Assembly (NCBI GenBank): GCA_024690825.1
Contig: JAILOK010000125.1
Coordinates: forward strand, 1-61,628
DNA: 61,628 nucleotides
Direction of reading: 5' to 3'
Source of the DNA: Lachnospiraceae bacterium
Lineage (GTDB): Bacteria > Bacillota > Clostridia > Lachnospirales > Lachnospiraceae
The notes under the pieces were generated by a model. The model did not search any database, was not told where the DNA came from, and was given only the letters and a program-made list of their open reading frames with translations. This document shows positions 2,508 to 53,138 of the stretch, piece after piece; the first letter of the stretch is position 1, and each line of letters starts with the position of its first letter. Made by a program: the position numbers and the translations under genes.

Positions 2508-3168
2508 TTTGCGTATTCTCCATCTGTTTTTCTTTCTCTTTCAGCTGTCTTTCCCGTTCTTCCAGATTCTGTTCCCAATCCGCATACTGGTTCTCTATCA
2601 CGGTCTTGTAGTTTAATATGTTCGGATTATCCGAATTCAGGGCTATTATAAAAAGCGCGGCGATGACAAGGACCAGGAATATATTTATTATCACGGAGGT
2701 CCTGTAGCCGTTTTTCATCTTCTTCATCTCCTGCCTGGCATCCGGTGCATAAGCGGGACGCATGGCAGCCCTGGCTTCGTTTCTTGCCCTCTGGGTAAAA
2801 AGAGATTCTGTATTTATCGTATAGATAGTGTCCTTATCTATTCCCGGAGACTGTAAAAGATATGCCCTGATCTCAAAAAGAAATTCATGTCCTGTGGGTG
2901 TGACGAACAGTTTGTTTTCTATCATTTTGTTGTAGATTGCAAGCACTTCCGCGGGATTATTCATGTTCATGCGGCTTTTGATATACATTATCTTTTTCAG
3001 TTCTTCTCTTGCTGCCGCGGCATCATGAACAGACGCATATCTGACTCCCTGAACAACAAGTTCGGACGCATTGGCTTTTAACATTTCATCAGCGCCCGGC
3101 TGTCTGGCCGTATCAGAGCTGTTTGATGAAGCTTTGTTTTCGGCCTTAATTTTTTCCTGTACTTCCAA
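2494..3168 (-). CDS. Unknown membrane protein with a C-terminal coiled coil
   Basis: I do not recognise this protein. The longest frame opens at 3261, but that would overlap dut by more than 110 bp. A TTG at 3168 with AGGGGCGG about 3 nt upstream gives 224 residues and only a 23-bp overlap, so I prefer it; an ATG at 3084 is another option. It has a soluble region of about 150 residues, then a single membrane segment ([19 protein letters not shown]), then a charged heptad-like tail ([17 protein letters not shown]) likely to form a coiled coil. The order dut, this gene, response regulator with overlapping ends implies translational coupling. It could sense a signal for the orphan regulator, but it has no kinase motifs, so that is only a guess. 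Confidence 0.7.
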
Positions 3169-3577
3169 AACCGCCCCTGTCCTTTCCTTCAAGCCTGTCT
3201 GTTTCTTCAAATTCGACGACCGGCTGATGCTCATATACCCTGAACTGGCAAATCCTGTCATTTAAGGCTATCTTTGTATCCCTAATCGCAAGTACGGGCA
3301 TGAACCACTGGTCGTTATCTCCGCAGTATGTTTCATCTATGATGCCGCAGCTGTTTGTCTGTATTATCCCGTAGTTTTTGAATGTACTGCTTCTGGGGAC
3401 CACATGCGCCTCATAGCCTTCCGGGAGTTTTATGGCAACACCAAGGGGAATGAGTTTGAACTCTCCCGCTTTCAGTTCGACATCCTCAGCGCATCGGAGA
3501 TCTATCCAGTCGGATTTTCCCTCGATATATTCGAGTTTATCTATCTTATCCGTGAAATATTTTATCTTTATCTTCAT
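3146..3577 (-). CDS. dut: dUTP diphosphatase (dUTPase)
   Basis: The 143-residue protein hydrolyses dUTP to dUMP and pyrophosphate, keeping uracil out of DNA and feeding thymidylate synthesis. Recognisable dUTPase motifs are [12 protein letters not shown] (motif 1), [13 protein letters not shown] (motif 2, with the conserved PRSS), [13 protein letters not shown] (motif 3), a modified motif 4 in [13 protein letters not shown], and the glycine-rich C-terminal arm [10 protein letters not shown] that closes over the active site. Length matches trimeric dUTPases. The ATG at 3577 follows GGGAGGA. It is first in a run with the membrane-protein gene and response regulator, an unusual partnership for dut. 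A promoter candidate sits at 3610-3639. Confidence 0.92.
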
Positions 3578-3609: not shown

Positions 3610-3639
3610 ATAATACCATTTTTTCATTATCCTGTTCAA
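3610..3639 (-). promoter_or_regulatory. Putative promoter of the dut operon
   Basis: Minus-strand TTGAAC (3634-3639) and TATTAT (3610-3615) are separated by 18 nt, about 35 nt upstream of the dut ATG. Inferred from sequence match. Confidence 0.45.
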
Positions 3640-3714: not shown

Positions 3715-3897
3715 GCGGGACGGTCTGATATTTTCAAAAGCGAACCATCAGCGCAGCAACGAGAGATAACTTCCTACGAAGATTTAGCCTGTGGGGAGAG
3801 AGGCGGAGCCGAACTTCCCGTTCAGGCTTAATCGAAGTTGGAAGTTAACTCGACGGCGGCGGAGCGCGGTGAGCGTTGAAAAATCAGACCGGGCCGC
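3715..3897. repeat. Structured inverted-repeat element, copy 1
   Basis: A non-coding element bounded by GGTCTGATATTTTCAAAAGC on the left and the complementary AAATCAGACC near 3890, extended outward by GCGG/CCGC. The core (AGCGCAGCAACGAGAGATAA at about 3750, and ACTCGACGGCGGCGGAGCG at about 3848) is nearly identical to the reverse complement of the element at 18855-19017. Inner complementary segments AGCCTG/CAGGCT and AACTTCC/GGAAGTT suggest a branched fold. It lies between the dut promoter and the smpB promoter. No protein is encoded. It may be a miniature mobile element or a folded RNA. Confidence 0.75.
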
Positions 3898-3917: not shown

Positions 3918-3946
3918 TTGATTTGAAAAAATCTGCGATATATAAT
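3918..3946 (+). promoter_or_regulatory. Putative promoter of smpB
   Basis: TTGATT (3918-3923), a 17-nt spacer and a perfect TATAAT (3941-3946). Transcription would start near 3953, just ahead of the GAAAGGAG ribosome-binding site. Confidence 0.55.
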
Positions 3947-3970: not shown

Positions 3971-4444
3971 ATGCCTTCAAAAATGAACGACCCGGTAAAG
4001 GTCATTGCAAAGAATAAAAAAGCCTATTTTGATTATTTTGTGGAAGAAGAGCTGGAAGTGGGCATTGAACTGTGCGGCACGGAAGTCAAGTCGATACGCC
4101 AGGGAAAATGCAGTATCCGCGAGGCTTATATCCATGTTTTAAAAAATGAACTCTTTATAGACGGCATGAATATCACTCCGTATGAAAAAGGGAATATCTT
4201 TAACAAAGATCCCCTAAGGTCGAGGCGGCTTCTTGCGCATAAAAAGGAGATCCTGAAGCTGAACGGACAGACTTCGGAGAAAGGCTATACCATCATGCCT
4301 TTGGAGGTCTATTTAAAGCAGGGAAAGGTCAAAATGAAGATTGGTCTGTGCAGGGGCAAGAAGCTCTATGACAAACGTCAGGCCATCGCCAAAAAGGATG
4401 CAAAGCGCGAGGCAGAAAGGGAGTTCAGAGTCAGAAACCTTTGA
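3971..4444 (+). CDS. smpB: SsrA-binding protein SmpB
   Basis: SmpB binds tmRNA and brings it to stalled ribosomes in trans-translation. The 157-residue product has the usual length and motifs: KNKKAYFDYFVEEELEVGIE, LCGTEVKSIRQGKCSIREAY, the NI..YEKGN segment, RRLLAHKKEI, and the basic C-terminal tail beginning GKKLYDKRQAIAKKDAKRE. The frame is open upstream to 3791, but GAAAGGAG 6 nt before the ATG at 3971 and the homology start fix the beginning. Its 3' end overlaps the convergent GLUG gene by 14 bp. In many Clostridia smpB sits directly beside rnr and ssrA; here those lie about 49 kb away in this window, so the cluster has been split. Confidence 0.97.
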   Translation: MPSKMNDPVKVIAKNKKAYFDYFVEEELEVGIELCGTEVKSIRQGKCSIREAYIHVLKNELFIDGMNITPYEKGNIFNKDPLRSRRLLAHKKEILKLNGQTSEKGYTIMPLEVYLKQGKVKMKIGLCRGKKLYDKRQAIAKKDAKREAEREFRVRNL

Positions 4445-18025: not shown

Positions 18026-18730
18026 TCAGAGCAGTCCGAGCACCGAATTCCGGCTGTCCTGCATCTGGCGGTTCTGCATCTGATACCTGTAGGTTTCAAG
18101 AGTTCTGTTCTTATTTAATTCCGATACTGCCGACCCGTACTCGGTATCAACGATCCTGCTTCGTCCCGCGGTAGTATTATAGGCTTCCGCCTCCTTGTTC
18201 CTGATCCTGTGCTCCAGTCCGTTATATTTCGCGCCATCACGGCTTCTTGCGCTGTTGACGGAATTGATGGAATCCGTAACGGACTTTATATCGAAGTCCT
18301 TGGGAAGATCGTTGATGACATTCTTATCAGCCACCTTTGTCTCATTAAACTTCGTGGTCGAAAGCATTGATTTGGCGTCCTTCTTTAACTGGGCCGAATA
18401 ATCGCTTAAGATTTTTTTGTCATCCGCTGACAGCAGTGGGTTTTCCGCCCGTACAGCCTGGGTGTACATATCCATGAGATAATCGCTTGTACCCTCATAC
18501 ATGCCGTCTGAGACATTTATCATGCTCTTTTCATCCTGATAATTTTCTATCTCTTTATTGGCACGGTTTATGGCCGCAAGCATCTTTTCGGAGATCGCAA
18601 GTCCAGCCGGATCATCCTTTGCGGAGTTGATCTTTTTGCCGCTTGAAAGCTTCTGAAAATCATTTTTCAGGTTTCTCTGACCGATATTGTGATATATGGA
18701 CATATTGTTATTATTTATCGACATTGACAT
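18026..18730 (-). CDS. Short flagellin-like protein
   Basis: A 234-residue protein that resembles flagellin at its N-terminus: SINNNNMSIYHNIGQRNLKN, LSSGKKINSAKDDPAGLAIS and the DGMYEG stretch, which together form the D0/D1 helices, and the C-terminal end (YRYQMQNRQMQDSRNSVLGLL) fits a D0 helix. It lacks the variable central region, so it is near minimal size; ordinary flagellins usually exceed 270 residues. ATG 18730 has AAAGGAGG 10 nt upstream and a promoter is proposed at 18762-18790. No other flagellar, chaperone (FliS/CsrA) or sigma-D gene is close by. It could be a minor filament protein, a regulator that competes with FliC, or a remnant still expressed. Family recognition is good, role uncertain. 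Confidence 0.8.
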   Translation of the reverse strand: MSMSINNNNMSIYHNIGQRNLKNDFQKLSSGKKINSAKDDPAGLAISEKMLAAINRANKEIENYQDEKSMINVSDGMYEGTSDYLMDMYTQAVRAENPLLSADDKKILSDYSAQLKKDAKSMLSTTKFNETKVADKNVINDLPKDFDIKSVTDSINSVNSARSRDGAKYNGLEHRIRNKEAEAYNTTAGRSRIVDTEYGSAVSELNKNRTLETYRYQMQNRQMQDSRNSVLGLL

Positions 18731-18761
18731 ATGCGTTTTCCTCCTTTGCATATCCAATGAA

Positions 18762-18790
18762 ATTATACTGCTTTTGCCCGATAAAGGCAA
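18762..18790 (-). promoter_or_regulatory. Putative promoter of the mini-flagellin gene
   Basis: Minus-strand TTGCCT (18785-18790), 17-nt spacer and a perfect TATAAT (18762-18767). This is a housekeeping-type promoter rather than the sigma-D type (TAAA/GCCGATAT) expected for flagellin genes. Confidence 0.5.
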
Positions 18791-18854
18791 CATTCTGCGA
18801 TAAAACCTCTAACCATACGGACAATCGCTCAACATGAATTTTTTTAGCGTCGCC

Positions 18855-19017
18855 AACTGATTTTCAAAACGAACCACGCTCCGCCGCCGTCGAGTTAACT
18901 GTCAACTTCGACTAAGACTCCCGGAAATTCGGCGTTGCCTCTTTCCCGGCAGTCTAAGTCTTCGTAGGCAGTTATCTCTCGTTGCTGCGCTGATGGTTCT
19001 TTTTTGAATAATCAGTT
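18855..19017. repeat. Structured inverted-repeat element, copy 2
   Basis: Bounded by AACTGATTTTCAAAACGAAC on the left and the complementary TTTTTTGAATAATCAGTT on the right. Its core is the reverse complement of the element at 3715-3897 and nearly identical to it over two blocks. Inner complementary segments are AGACT/AGTCT and AACTG/CAGTT, which differ from copy 1 but keep the pairing. The flank beyond the right arm (GCTCCGCCTGACAAAAAGTA) continues to match the third copy near 42465. The element fills the divergent gap between the mini-flagellin and a hybrid kinase gene. Confidence 0.75.
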
Positions 19018-19070: not shown

Positions 19071-19099
19071 TTGTAATATTGTCTATAAGGCTTTATAAT
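19071..19099 (+). promoter_or_regulatory. Putative promoter of the hybrid kinase/STAS-kinase operon
   Basis: TTGTAA (19071-19076), 17-nt spacer, TATAAT (19094-19099). The start point predicted about 7 nt downstream falls at the ATG at 19107, so the transcript could be nearly leaderless; no ribosome-binding site is visible upstream of that ATG. Confidence 0.45.
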
Positions 19100-19106
19100 A
19101 TGGACC

Positions 19107-21254
19107 ATGAAGTTAAAGAACAGACTGATAAAACAATTTGCGTTTCTGATATCCATTTTTGTTATAACCAGCGTCGTCGTATCGGCTCTCGTCACTTATT
19201 ATACTCAGACAAACAGGTACAGAAATCTCTGCCGGGACAGGATCATGGCTGTCGGGGATTATCTGTGCGGTCTGATCCTTCATGATCCCGAAGATTTTTC
19301 GGATTACAGGGACTATTATCTGGAGCATTACCAGCAGATAAGGATCCCTGTTGATTTTGATGATGACGGTCCCGCCAAGATCGCATTCTATGACGCATTC
19401 AACAAAACCTACCCGGATCTTTCCTTTAAAACCGACATTAAACCCCGGGATATGTCAGAGGATGTCAAACTCCTTTATTATACCTATCTGCATGAACACT
19501 GGCTTCTGATCTTTGAACAGGCAAGAAGTTCTTTTGATCTGCCCTATACCTATTTTCTCGTGCCGGATGATGAGACGAATTATACGATGTACATGATAGA
19601 CGGCGAGCGTACCGAGGACAAGGATCATCCCGGTTTCCTCTATATGGGCGATTCATATTACGAAGAACCCGGCAAGCACGAGCTTATGTGGAACACATAC
19701 CATAACGGTATAAAGTATGACGATGTGTACGAATGGAATAATGAATGGGGCAACACCTATTCATACTATACTCCACTCGTGATCGACGGCCGGTGCCTCG
19801 GTCTCATCGTCACCGAGATAAATGTCAACGATGTCAACAGCATGATAAAAAAGAGCACCTTTGCTCTGGTCATACAGCTTGCCATCTTCCTTATCATCCT
19901 GACATCCCTTCTTCTGTTTGTGATCAACAGGAAGCATATCAACAGGATCGATCATCTCTCGGACCAGATCAATGATTTCTCATCAACCAGAGCCTATGAG
20001 ACCGTGGAGGCGATCAGAGCTTATCCCTACGGCAGGGACGACGAGATACGAAGGCTTGCTGAAAATACGGCAGACATGATTCATGAACTGCAGGTGCACG
20101 AAGATGAGATAGCTCAGGCTGCCCAGTTCAAAAGCGATTTTCTCGCGAATATGAGCCATGAGATCAGGACTCCCATGAATGCTGTTGTAAGTCTCTCAGA
20201 GCTTCTCTCCAAACAGGAGCTTGACGACAAAAGCCGCGAATACGCAGAGCAGATCAACTTCTCGGCAAATACAATGCTTGTCATAATCAATGATATCCTT
20301 GATTTTTCAAGGATCGAATCCGGGACGATGCTCATCAACCCGTCAAACTATGATGTCAAAAAGATGATCCGTGATATAGTGAACATCACATCCATGGGAC
20401 TGGGTGACAAGCCTGTCGAAATGAAACTGGTCATAGACCCGAATGTTCCCTCATACCTGACGGGAGACAGTGCAAGGATCAGGCAGGTTCTGATGAATGT
20501 GGTCTCAAACGCTGTAAAATTCACTGAAAAAGGTTCCGTCAAGATCAGCGTGGACAGTAAAAAGACCGGTGAAGATTCGATCGATCTGAAGATCAAGGTT
20601 TCCGATACCGGTATCGGCATCAGAAAAAAAGATTATGAAAAGATCTTTGATTCCTTCTCACAGGTGGACAGCAGCCGTAACAGAAAGGCAGAGGGCACGG
20701 GACTCGGTCTTGCCATAAGCCAGCGTCTCGTCAGGCTGATGAACGGTACCATAGAAGTGGAAAGCGAATACGGCATCGGCAGCATATTTAAGATAAGCAT
20801 ACCTCAGATGATAGCCGGATTCAGTGATGACAACACTCCCCTTTCTTCCGGTACGGCTCCGGCAGAAAAGTATTTCAGCGCCCCCGATGCTCAGATTCTC
20901 GTAGTGGATGACAACAGCGTCAATATCTATATTGCAAAAAGACTTCTGGAACTCTTTGATATCAAAGCGACCTGCGTCTTAAGCGGAGCAGCAGCCATCA
21001 AGGCATGTAATGACACTGATTTTGATCTGATCCTCATGGATCACATGATGCCCGGAATGGACGGTATCGAAACCATGAAGAGGATACGCGAGCAGTTCCC
21101 TCAATACAAAAAGATCCCGATCATAGCCTTCACGGCCAACGCTGTTTCCGAAGCAAGGGATCATCTCCTTGCCGCAGGCATGGATGATTTCATCTCAAAA
21201 CCGGTAAAAGGCAGGGATCTTGAAGCACTGCTTAAAAAGTGGCTAAAAAAGTAA
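19107..21254 (+). CDS. Hybrid sensor histidine kinase with C-terminal receiver
   Basis: A 715-residue kinase. A first membrane helix (about 10-30) and a second (about 252-272) enclose an extracytoplasmic sensor domain of roughly 220 residues rich in Tyr, Asp and Glu, of no family I recognise by eye. A linker leads to HisKA (LANMSHEIRTPMNAV, H351), HATPase (NVVSNAVKFTEKG, DTGIGI, GTGLGLAISQR) and a receiver (LMDHMMPGMDG, D645; FISKPVKG). No Hpt domain is present, so phosphate may pass to the Hpt kinase encoded near 15 kb or elsewhere. No clear ribosome-binding site precedes ATG 19107, but the start is needed to include the first membrane helix. The STAS-kinase gene follows after 24 bp. Confidence 0.92.
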   Translation: MKLKNRLIKQFAFLISIFVITSVVVSALVTYYTQTNRYRNLCRDRIMAVGDYLCGLILHDPEDFSDYRDYYLEHYQQIRIPVDFDDDGPAKIAFYDAFNKTYPDLSFKTDIKPRDMSEDVKLLYYTYLHEHWLLIFEQARSSFDLPYTYFLVPDDETNYTMYMIDGERTEDKDHPGFLYMGDSYYEEPGKHELMWNTYHNGIKYDDVYEWNNEWGNTYSYYTPLVIDGRCLGLIVTEINVNDVNSMIKKSTFALVIQLAIFLIILTSLLLFVINRKHINRIDHLSDQINDFSSTRAYETVEAIRAYPYGRDDEIRRLAENTADMIHELQVHEDEIAQAAQFKSDFLANMSHEIRTPMNAVVSLSELLSKQELDDKSREYAEQINFSANTMLVIINDILDFSRIESGTMLINPSNYDVKKMIRDIVNITSMGLGDKPVEMKLVIDPNVPSYLTGDSARIRQVLMNVVSNAVKFTEKGSVKISVDSKKTGEDSIDLKIKVSDTGIGIRKKDYEKIFDSFSQVDSSRNRKAEGTGLGLAISQRLVRLMNGTIEVESEYGIGSIFKISIPQMIAGFSDDNTPLSSGTAPAEKYFSAPDAQILVVDDNSVNIYIAKRLLELFDIKATCVLSGAAAIKACNDTDFDLILMDHMMPGMDGIETMKRIREQFPQYKKIPIIAFTANAVSEARDHLLAAGMDDFISKPVKGRDLEALLKKWLKK

Positions 21255-35424: not shown

Positions 35425-35457
35425 CAATAACTATGTTGTATTTACCCTATTATGCTA

Positions 35458-35696
35458 ATCGGGATGACCCACATATATTATGGTGCAGTTGTTCAGACGC
35501 TTTATTATCTAAGCTCATGATTTAATCTGTGGCCGGTCACGCAACCGGAGCAATCCGACATCCCTGTCTGACCTCGCTTCGCTCGGTTTTTGCTCCTATT
35601 TGCGCATCCATGCGCAAATTTGCTGACTATTGAGCATTCGCTAAGATAATAACAGCATCCTCACAGAGCACTATAATATATGTGGGTCATCCCGAT
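35458..35696. repeat. MITE-like element with long terminal inverted repeats
   Basis: The ends are inverted copies of ATCGGGATGACCCACATATA followed by TTATGGTGC (left) or TTATAGTGC (right), about 28 of 29 positions matching. A second pairing zone further in (TTATTATCTAAGC against the complement of GCTAAGATAATAA) extends the palindrome. Inside are local hairpins: CCGGT/ACCGG near 35537, GGAGCAA/TTGCTCC, and TTTGCGCA/TGCGCAAA near 35605. No protein is encoded. At 239 bp it has the architecture of a miniature inverted-repeat transposable element; no clear target-site duplication was seen. Confidence 0.7.
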
Positions 35697-35763
35697 CCAA
35701 GTAAAGGGCAGCTAAAAACAGTAACTGCGTCCCCATTATATTAAGATCATATGATGTTGCGAC

Positions 35764-35946
35764 GAATTGCGTCTTCGCTCCGCTTCGGTCGGCGCTACGC
35801 AAACAGCCACTGGCTGTTTAGCGCCGTTGCTAAAGCAACTCTCGCAATTCTGAAACACTCACAATCCGCGCAGTAGCGCTACTTGTTCGTGTTTCTCGGG
35901 TCACAAAGTCATAATGCTTTTCAAACAAGTTTGAACGCATTATGAC
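35764..35946. repeat. Cluster of nested palindromes
   Basis: GAATTGCG (35764-35771) pairs with CGCAATTC (35843-35850) around an inner hairpin made of GGCGCT/AGCGCC and AAACAGCC/GGCTGTTT (35791-35825). A separate strong hairpin uses GTCATAATGC (35908-35917) and GCATTATGAC (35937-35946). The block fills the gap between the MITE-like element and the end of the putative anti-sigma gene and encodes nothing I can recognise. It may be a second non-autonomous element or a folded RNA. Confidence 0.6.
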
Positions 35947-35969
35947 CTTTTGACCCTTACATCATCATA

Positions 35970-42396: not shown

Positions 42397-42418
42397 ATTT
42401 TTTCTCCCCGGCGTCGTA

Positions 42419-42464
42419 AACTGATTTTCAAAAAGACCCATGGGTCTTTTTTGAATAATCAGTT
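42419..42464. repeat. Structured inverted-repeat element, minimal copy 3
   Basis: The two arms AACTGATTTTCAAAAAGACC and its near-complement GGTCTTTTTTGAATAATCAG sit back to back with no core between them, making a 46-nt near-perfect palindrome centred on CCCATGGG. The flanks (GCGTCG on the left; GCTCCGCCTG on the right) match those of copy 2 at 18855-19017. It is best read as a copy whose core is missing, lying in the leader of the transglutaminase-like gene. Confidence 0.75.
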
Positions 42465-42518
42465 CGCTCCGCCTGTCATAAACATCGATCACACGATCAG
42501 TCTGCTTTCCGATATTTT

Positions 42519-52008: not shown

Positions 52009-52686
52009 CTATTTAACCGCCCAAAATCCGGCCTGCATGTATGATGCCCACAAAATGTTTACGGATCTGAATCCGGCATTCTTTATCATCTCAAGATGCT
52101 GTTCTATGGTTATCGGAAACATTTCAACACCCCGTCTTGCCTGATGAGCTTTGACTTTCTCCGGTGTCCAGCCATGATCTAAAAGGAATTGCCCCCAGCG
52201 GTCCAAAGCCATGGCATCGCTTTCTTTGGTTGACATCCTTATATTTTCGAAGGTCATAAATATGCCTTCTTCCTTCAGGGCTCTGCAACATTTTTTTACA
52301 GCAATGCTTCGCGTCTCAATGTCATAATAATGATGACTCTGAATGGCAGTCACGATATCGAACTCATTTTCATATGCAAGTGCATCCGATGCGATATTGT
52401 TGAAACTTATATTCTTCCCCTTGAGTTTTTCCTTTGCTATCTTAAGCATGCCTTCAGACGGATCACAGAGGGTGATCTCTGTATCCGGGAGTTCAGCAAG
52501 CGCTCTTGCAGCAAGGGTTCCCGTACCACAGCCGGTGTCGAGCCATTTTATCCCTTTCTCTCTCCCACGGGATATCATTTTTGCCACATCAATAACCTGA
52601 CTATGGAATTCCGTATAATACGGAAGCACATTTGTGATATTCGCATCATAAATACCCGAATCATAAGATGATTTGTTATCTTTCAT
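52009..52686 (-). CDS. Class I SAM-dependent methyltransferase
   Basis: A 225-residue methyltransferase of the small-molecule type. The SAM site is visible as KWLDTGCGTGTLAARAL (motif I), ITLCDPSEGMLKIAKEKL (motif II), FDIVTAIQSHHYYD and CRALKEEGIFMTFENIRM. The substrate cannot be told. GAAAGGAAT precedes the ATG. It is a single gene between the frd operon and tmRNA; a putative promoter overlaps the tmRNA terminator stem (TTGCCG, 16-nt spacer, TATTAT on the minus strand). Confidence 0.9.
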   Translation of the reverse strand: MKDNKSSYDSGIYDANITNVLPYYTEFHSQVIDVAKMISRGREKGIKWLDTGCGTGTLAARALAELPDTEITLCDPSEGMLKIAKEKLKGKNISFNNIASDALAYENEFDIVTAIQSHHYYDIETRSIAVKKCCRALKEEGIFMTFENIRMSTKESDAMALDRWGQFLLDHGWTPEKVKAHQARRGVEMFPITIEQHLEMIKNAGFRSVNILWASYMQAGFWAVK

Positions 52687-52740
52687 TTTATATTCCTTTC
52701 CTTATGGCCCTTTTGAATCATTCTATAATATTTATATACG

Positions 52741-52786
52741 AAGATTCGGCAAAATCAACATTGGATTGTTGTTTTTGCCGAATCTT
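52741..52786 (-). terminator. Terminator hairpin beyond tmRNA
   Basis: AAGATTCGGC (52741-52750) pairs with GCCGAATCTT (52777-52786), with further pairing of AAAA/TTTT and CAACA/TGTTG inside. A run of T follows on the plus strand and of A precedes on the minus strand. It lies just after the 3' end of ssrA. Confidence 0.7.
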
Positions 52787-52793
52787 TTTTGAG

Positions 52794-53138
52794 TGGAGTA
52801 GGCGGGAGTCGAACCCGCGTCCAAAAACCGATCCACCGTCCTTCTACTATCGTAGTACGCTGTTTAGGATTCCCTCTGCCGCACGGAAGCGCACGCCCTT
52901 ACGGTTTCGGTAGCTTCATGATACGCCCATACACTCAAAGCTTTGCATATGTCGTTTCCTGTCTGTTTGACGCCGGTATCCGGTCGGACAGGTACATCCG
53001 GGCCGACGGCAGCATGCGCTTAGGCAGCTGCTAACGCGTAATTATCGTCTGCGTTTAATTTTAATTTTGAGATTTAACGCGATCTCCTTCGGATAGCTTC
53101 TCCGGCTTCATGGCCCCTGTCGAAACCATTACTACCCC
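52794..53138 (-). ncRNA. ssrA: Transfer-messenger RNA (tmRNA)
   Basis: About 345 nt. The 5' end GGGGTAGTAATGGTTTCGAC and 3' end GGTTCGACTCCCGCCTACTC form the tRNA-like part: acceptor GGGGTAG pairs with CTACTCC, and the T-arm has the loop TTCGACT. The tag frame at 53052-53020 reads GCA GAC GAT AAT TAC GCG TTA GCA GCT GCC TAA, encoding ADDNYALAAA, a normal degradation tag. After the acceptor stem the sequence is ACTC, so the terminal CCA is apparently not encoded. With SmpB it rescues stalled ribosomes. It lies downstream of rnr, as is usual in Clostridia, while smpB is elsewhere. Confidence 0.95.

Follow-up and report, generated by a model that had tools for sequence, protein, structure and literature searches.

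Two repeat copies in opposite orientation lie between genes in the window, which is the whole 61,628-nt stretch of DNA analysed here, from a Lachnospiraceae bacterium. They raise the question of whether the repeat is a structured RNA or a miniature mobile element that depends on its fold. The features of the window are given in Table 1. Three paired differences between copy 1 and copy 2, on which the initial annotation had been built, were all read directly in the sequence. The outer arms are GGTCTGAT/ATCAGACC (3722-3729/3883-3890) in copy 1 and AACTGAT/ATCAGTT in copy 2, an inner stem is AGCCTG/CAGGCT in copy 1 against AGACT/AGTCT in copy 2, and a further stem is AACTT/AAGTT against AACTG/CAGTT. 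The position first assigned to copy 1 (3715-3897) was right as to location but slightly too broad, the paired core being 3722-3890. GCGCAGCAACGAGAG had been described as an unpaired block, and this was partly correct; in the consensus, CG, GC and GAG inside it pair across asymmetric loops.

Table 1. Repeat copies, neighbouring genes and promoter-like sites in the window.
Feature	Position	Strand	Basis or sequence
Copy 1, hairpin core: one long stem interrupted by internal loops	3722..3890	+	sequence, alignment, fold
Copy 2, hairpin core, opposite orientation to copy 1	18855..19017	-	sequence, alignment, fold
Arms-only derivative: outer arms meeting in a short perfect palindrome, without the core	42411..42482	-	repeat comparison
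dUTPase-like gene, copy 1 neighbour	3146..3577	-	
smpB, copy 1 neighbour	3971..4444	+	
Flagellin-like gene, copy 2 neighbour	18026..18793	-	
Hybrid histidine kinase gene, copy 2 neighbour	19107..21254	+	
Promoter-like site facing the divergent dUTPase-like gene	3610..3639	-	9/12
Promoter-like site facing smpB, between copy 1 and smpB	3918..3946	+	TTGATT-17-TATAAT
Promoter-like site facing the flagellin-like gene, between copy 2 and the gene	18762..18790	-	TTGCCT-17-TATAAT
Promoter-like site facing the histidine kinase gene	19071..19099	+	TTGTAA-17-TATAAT

A repeat search of the window returned copies 1 and 2 as inverted arms that are 85-86% complementary. Copy 1 was predicted to fold at -77.8 kcal/mol (z -7.64) and copy 2 at -70.8 kcal/mol (z -8.27), and for neither copy was any of 200 dinucleotide shuffles as good. 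With DNA parameters, copy 1 gave a z score of -5.80. At the junction of the arms-only derivative, a left arm ending GACCCA abuts a right arm starting TGGGTC. No Rfam match at gathering scores was obtained for the window copies, nor across 11 loci with other copies of the element; at a relaxed threshold, copy 1 had two Rfam matches, both weak (E 0.55 and 1.3).

DNA search of the 2.95-Mb draft of the same genome found the element at nine places. These copies are just 76-88% identical to copy 1, so that recent movement in this genome is without support. One of them (C124:69468; G, C and L numbers are our handles for genomes, contigs and loci) lacks part of the left side. A divergent full copy (C115:19995) was added by a covariance model; C65:24357 is a left-half remnant, and C112:41016 and C22:172617 are right-end matches. 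The element is a dispersed, extragenic, multi-copy palindrome folding as a hairpin.

A plain DNA search with copy 1 gave no match in 60 relatives, while a search with the C129 copy matched six of the 48 genus genomes (the own genome included), two of them marginally. The covariance model R1 matched 13 of the 48 genus genomes at E <= 0.01, again including the own genome; it was run with stricter filters, and absences from genus genomes are therefore not firm. R1 matches numbered 14 in G066, nine in G012, seven in G030, four in G014, three in G016, two each in G028, G008 and G021, and one each in G013, G029, G026 and G061. The own genome had 19, both strands counted. Additional copies and fragments were found in G066 and G014 by DNA search. 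When a second model, R2, was run over 392 genomes of the order, six matched (a lower bound, seven candidates being scored per listed genome): the own genome, G061 and four from other genera of the family, namely G339 (one place, both strands), G088 (three), G345 (five, one weak) and G189 (one). Copies in G029 and G016, two genomes of the genus of the window, share 81% identity with the G339 copy, and subfamilies therefore cross genus borders. The initial annotation had looked to further copies in related genomes, and they occur in the own genome, in the genus and in other genera.

Copy 1 had no match in plasmid and phage collections, and two other subfamilies had none in the plasmid collection. 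A 15-base pattern that picked out 52 stretches of viral contigs was put down to chance, an nhmmer profile of the own-genome copies scoring the contigs at E 0.005 or worse, and a second pattern found nothing in viral contigs. Likewise, the 27 stretches found with a 19-base pattern in named genomes were rejected as chance, since the folds of 11 of them had no such hairpin. No description of this repeat family was found in the titles and abstract openings of open-access literature.

Several copies stand in compound arrangements. Inverted pairs of copies, about 100 bases to 1.1 kb apart, were seen in G345 (L318, L320), G088 (L317, L319) and G016 (L219), and those of G345 are embedded in larger nested palindromes. 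A second module, about 250 bp in length, lies upstream of several copies in G066 (L198, L201, L204, L205) and G030 (L211); the two modules that were folded form long hairpins, and composite units of about 450 bp exist.

To assess covariation, the nine own-genome copies were aligned in one orientation with a 57-pair consensus. In this alignment 95.7% of cells pair, and 14 of the 57 pairs have changed on both sides. There were 31 double-change cells against 10.3 after shuffling, a number reached by none of 500 column shuffles, which ignore kinship. In slid controls pairing fell to 29-44%. A less striking measure, further pair types, was reached by 33 of the 500 shuffles. A wider alignment, A3, was built from 36 copies of 11 genomes, chosen out of 53 available; the truncated copy C124b and 16 others were left out by hand to limit near-duplicates, and two further places were unused. 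In its predicted 24-pair core, 93.4% of cells are paired and 23 of the 24 pairs have changed on both sides at least once. The core has 146 double-change cells against 33.7 in shuffles that ignore kinship (0/500), and its covariation score is 0.562 against 0.209 for shuffled columns. None of 500 shuffles reached any of five measures, and slid alignments were at most 35.3% paired. Covariation among the copies, as initially proposed, is thus far above column shuffles, which ignore kinship, and slid controls. RNAalifold on A3 recovered the 24-pair core alone. The outer stems are paired in single-sequence folds and align poorly between subfamilies. The 63-pair structure behind R2 was averaged from single-sequence folds and is for that reason no independent evidence.

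The unit measures about 165-210 nt, with some subfamilies reaching about 260 nt, and folds from end to end into a single hairpin. In most subfamilies, GAGAT on the left stands opposite AGCTC on the right, with variants such as AAGAT/AGCTT. Most subfamilies also have a TAC-GAA-GAC/GTC-GAA-GT segment, whose GAA/GAA gives way to complementary bases in the G016-like subfamily. Close to the tip, most subfamilies carry an AGA/GAA loop, which was not seen in that of G012. Nearly invariant alignment columns include loop residues. A foot starting CAGG (or CAGA) and ending CCGTC is present in most G066, G030 and G014 copies, in the G088 copies, in G016_C225 and in G029. The own-genome copies mostly start CAGGCG, and their right end is without a clear CCGTC. 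One or both end motifs were missing in four of 35 copies, but this search took CAGG/CCGTC-type motifs as its patterns and is therefore no measure of how conserved they are; several left ends were also placed wrongly. In the 31 of 35 copies whose ends were found by pattern, no offset or length stood out convincingly for target duplication, and with the misplaced left ends this test is weak. The arms vary among subfamilies, and just a few terminal bases recur.

The two strands are not equivalent. The fold of the strand oriented like copy 1 was the more stable one in 49 of 53 copies, the mean advantage being 7.8 kcal/mol. At pairs with a Watson-Crick majority, G-U exceeded A-C in alignment A1 (19 vs 5, p 0.007) and in the A3 core (35 vs 11, p 0.0005); the difference was not significant in the 63-pair structure (93 vs 73, p 0.14). 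Among unpaired bases of alignment A1, 72% are A or G. From the strand preference and the excess of G-U over A-C, the fold appears to be kept on the copy 1-oriented strand. This points to one strand that would fold alone, and it would do so alike as RNA or as ssDNA.

As shown in Table 1, each window copy sits between two divergent promoter-like sites. A further 9-of-12 promoter match (18867-18838, minus strand) begins within the 3' arm of copy 2 and is directed outward. The copies had been described as lying upstream of genes, which is correct as to position. In both cases a sigma-70-like site separates the element from the gene on its downstream side, and a leader-RNA role is therefore unlikely at the window copies. 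By crude ORF calls at 61 copies, the upstream gene was on the same strand in 24 cases and on the opposite strand in 25, with 12 copies having none, and the downstream gene was on the same strand in 31 and on the opposite strand in 28. Overlap with a predicted ORF was seen at five of the 61 copies, in one case just because the smpB frame was called too long. Inward promoters were not in excess at 59 copies by a home-made score (means 9.33 into the folded strand vs 9.26 into the other, p 0.44), and no shared regulated gene was seen among the copies. Many copies have neighbouring ORFs of about 300 aa, which were put down to the 1-kb length of the flanks fetched.

Site occupancy was compared at smpB and between two sister species. 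SmpB was found in 43 of the 48 genus genomes and 30 loci were fetched; R2 matched the own locus and gave nothing in the 29 from relatives. In the plasmid collection, the best SmpB hits, at 57-58% identity, were in Monoglobus and Acetoanaerobium, both of them Clostridia. The dUTPase-smpB pair is kept in three relatives (G027, G063 and G012), and the element site is empty in all three. The gap between the two genes is 207 bp in G027 versus 393 bp here, and a TATAAT-like box and the start codon align. Gain by insertion would be the simplest reading of these sequences, with loss in other lineages as an alternative. At another site, a G030 copy abuts a gene remnant of about 110 bp where G014 has an intact nucleotidyltransferase and substrate-binding pair. 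Homology begins there within a few bases of the 5' foot of the element; about 700 bp of G014 sequence are without a counterpart, and the case is therefore no clean insertion. Between G014_C1 and G030_C3, homology spans the left flank and the element and ends at the 3' foot. Other G030 and G014 copies have both flanks in common, and some sites must accordingly be inherited. A precise empty site with both junctions was not found among the sites compared. The same two genomes differ by two other segments. L212:795-940 of G030 is a 146-bp palindrome-rich segment against about four bases in G014, a cleaner presence/absence difference than that of the element. L161:3876-10130 of G030 is a 6.2-kb segment missing from G014, with a 13-bp overlap at the junction; besides a second copy of the element, it encodes a ResIII/T5orf172 protein and an Eco57I-type methylase.

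Taken together, these data make it probable that the element is a non-autonomous mobile palindromic repeat family, present in several genera of one bacterial family, in which the fold of the copy 1-oriented strand is under selection. The initial proposal of a structured RNA or a fold-dependent miniature mobile element is thereby supported, and its mobile-element branch is favoured over a dedicated RNA gene by the even orientation, the lack of promoter excess, the lineage-specific sites and the end motifs. Against the mobile-repeat reading stand the lack of a precise empty site, the lack of a linked transposase and the absence of a clear CCGTC in the own subfamily.

Structured small RNA genes could be supposed instead, transcribed from copies multiplied by gene duplication, the purine-loop hairpin being bound by a protein or processed. 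Such genes would account for the RNA-like covariation, the strand preference and the recurrence of non-canonical loops across genera. However, the inward promoter-like sites at 59 copies (home-made score) are not in excess, orientation to neighbours is even, R1 matched just 13 of 48 genus genomes (strict filters), and the smpB site is not common to relatives, though G030 and G014 share some sites; we consider small RNA genes unlikely. Long palindromes are prone to arm-to-arm correction, and paired changes might arise by template switching, one arm being copied from the other with no selection on the fold. The arms-only derivative of the window resembles a hairpin-tip deletion, and the complementary bases in place of the GAA/GAA loop in the G016-like subfamily would also suit this explanation. 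Yet correction would erase mismatched loops, whereas AGA/GAA and the GAGAT/AGCTC-like loops persist in divergent subfamilies and other genera, and loop residues are among the near-invariant columns. Template switching is thus improbable as the source of the pattern. A cis-acting site of the neighbouring genes (an mRNA leader, a terminator or a regulatory DNA site) would fit the position of both window copies between divergent genes, but the intervening promoter-like sites at both, the even orientation and the unrelated genes next to the window copies leave it very little credit. The same small credit is due to a site for an integron-like or other site-specific recombinase, folded as ssDNA like attC, since the copies, save some close inverted pairs, are dispersed and not in cassette arrays, even though strand preference would agree with it, as would the loss of homology at an element end, or no more than a few bases from it, in two sister-species comparisons.

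In the mobile-repeat reading, selection would keep the fold and not the sequence of the stems, since the arms change in pairs while purine-rich loops and short ends recur. A trans-acting enzyme may recognise the folded single strand, either as DNA exposed in replication or as an RNA copy. By analogy with REPINs, in whose stems compensatory changes occur too (PMC3116915), a single-strand mechanism of the HUH/Y1 type may be supposed; it would fit best with the lack of detectable target duplication, a weak test, and with the unpaired end motifs. Y1_Tnp matches were obtained in six of the eight genomes searched, and none in the copy-bearing genomes G012 (87% complete) and G016 (84% complete). None of six Y1_Tnp loci read contained a copy of the element. 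These results, the two unmatched genomes being incomplete, argue against an enzyme of this type. By coordinates, the nearest Y1_Tnp-element pair is about 6 kb apart, in G066. The sole Y1_Tnp match of the own genome (G000:C107:20804-21169, L281) is on another contig than the window, is divergent from a frame that is TnpB-like by eye and is hence IS605-like, with no copy of the element in the locus read. A more specific version of the mobile-repeat reading may be offered as tentative. It would be a structure-addressed mobile element, one of several long-hairpin families, in which the fold with its non-canonical purine internal loops would be the address and a single strand, RNA or ssDNA, would be mobilised by a trans-acting enzyme.

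IS200/IS605 ends and integron attC sites work as folded ssDNA hairpins with strand preference, and they are shorter; ERIC repeats also fold. The element is like the first two in being a hairpin with strand preference, and is unlike IS200/IS605 in that no Y1 gene was linked to it in the loci read. Classical MITEs share terminal inverted repeats with an autonomous transposon; search of the own genome for a parent transposon with the arms of the element returned its copies and short weak matches, and no larger element with the same arms was seen there. REPINs are dispersed extragenic non-autonomous palindromes with predicted ssDNA or mRNA hairpins, and compensatory changes in their stems are termed common (PMC3116915). 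The element resembles them in these respects. REPINs consist of two short, highly conserved REP ends flanking a variable spacer (PMC3116915), whereas the element, by comparison with that description, keeps internal loops and varies in its arms; moreover, no RAYT gene (a Y1 transposase) adjoins its copies in the loci read. ERIC/RU repeats are described as small mobile enterobacterial sequences of 103-168 bp, occurring in many intergenic regions and compared with MITEs (PMC2759123). By this description they are small mobile intergenic repeats, as the element probably is; they are enterobacterial, while the subfamilies of the element diverge across genera with the fold kept. REPINs, ERIC/RU repeats and MITEs are the nearest kinds, from which the element is set apart by having neither a linked RAYT nor long conserved ends. 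By analogy, its manner may be REPIN- or ERIC-like, but the unit is longer and its internal loops are conserved, and no transposase was found linked to it. The family adds a multi-genus group of one bacterial family to the repeats apparently selected as folded nucleic acid, and differs from REPINs in keeping internal loops instead of long conserved ends. It becomes testable which enzyme would read a long hairpin by its shape, and whether movement would be as RNA or as ssDNA.

Other structured sequences were noticed in the window. The minus strand at 35455-35700 also folds into a very long hairpin (-114.3 kcal/mol, z -10.5), whose outer arms of 29 nt are 97% complementary. A TwoAYGGAY match in Rfam (35503-35651, 44.7 bits, gathering score 43) falls inside it, and its CTTAG/GAGCTTAG parts resemble, by eye, other G014 and G030 repeats. 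TwoAYGGAY RNA (RF01731) is, in the cited account (PMC2864571), a candidate structured element that occurs in Clostridiales and elsewhere; the element studied here differs from it in having no Rfam match at gathering score. A Clostridiales-1 RNA was found at 35812-35964 (minus strand), and a tmRNA gene with the tag ADDNYALAAA at 52791-53138 (minus strand).

G030 has two other dispersed repeats, each about 200 bp long (L213:808-1009 and L212:1970-2183), with 43 and 23 match rows, respectively, in G014, some rows being pieces of one copy. The L212 repeat folds as a very long hairpin and the L213 repeat not clearly so. R2 gave no match on nine G014 loci holding these repeats. About 240 bp separate an L213-type repeat (G014:C23:52145-52345) from a Y1_Tnp gene (52586-52945), and it is possible that this repeat family is linked to a Y1 transposase.
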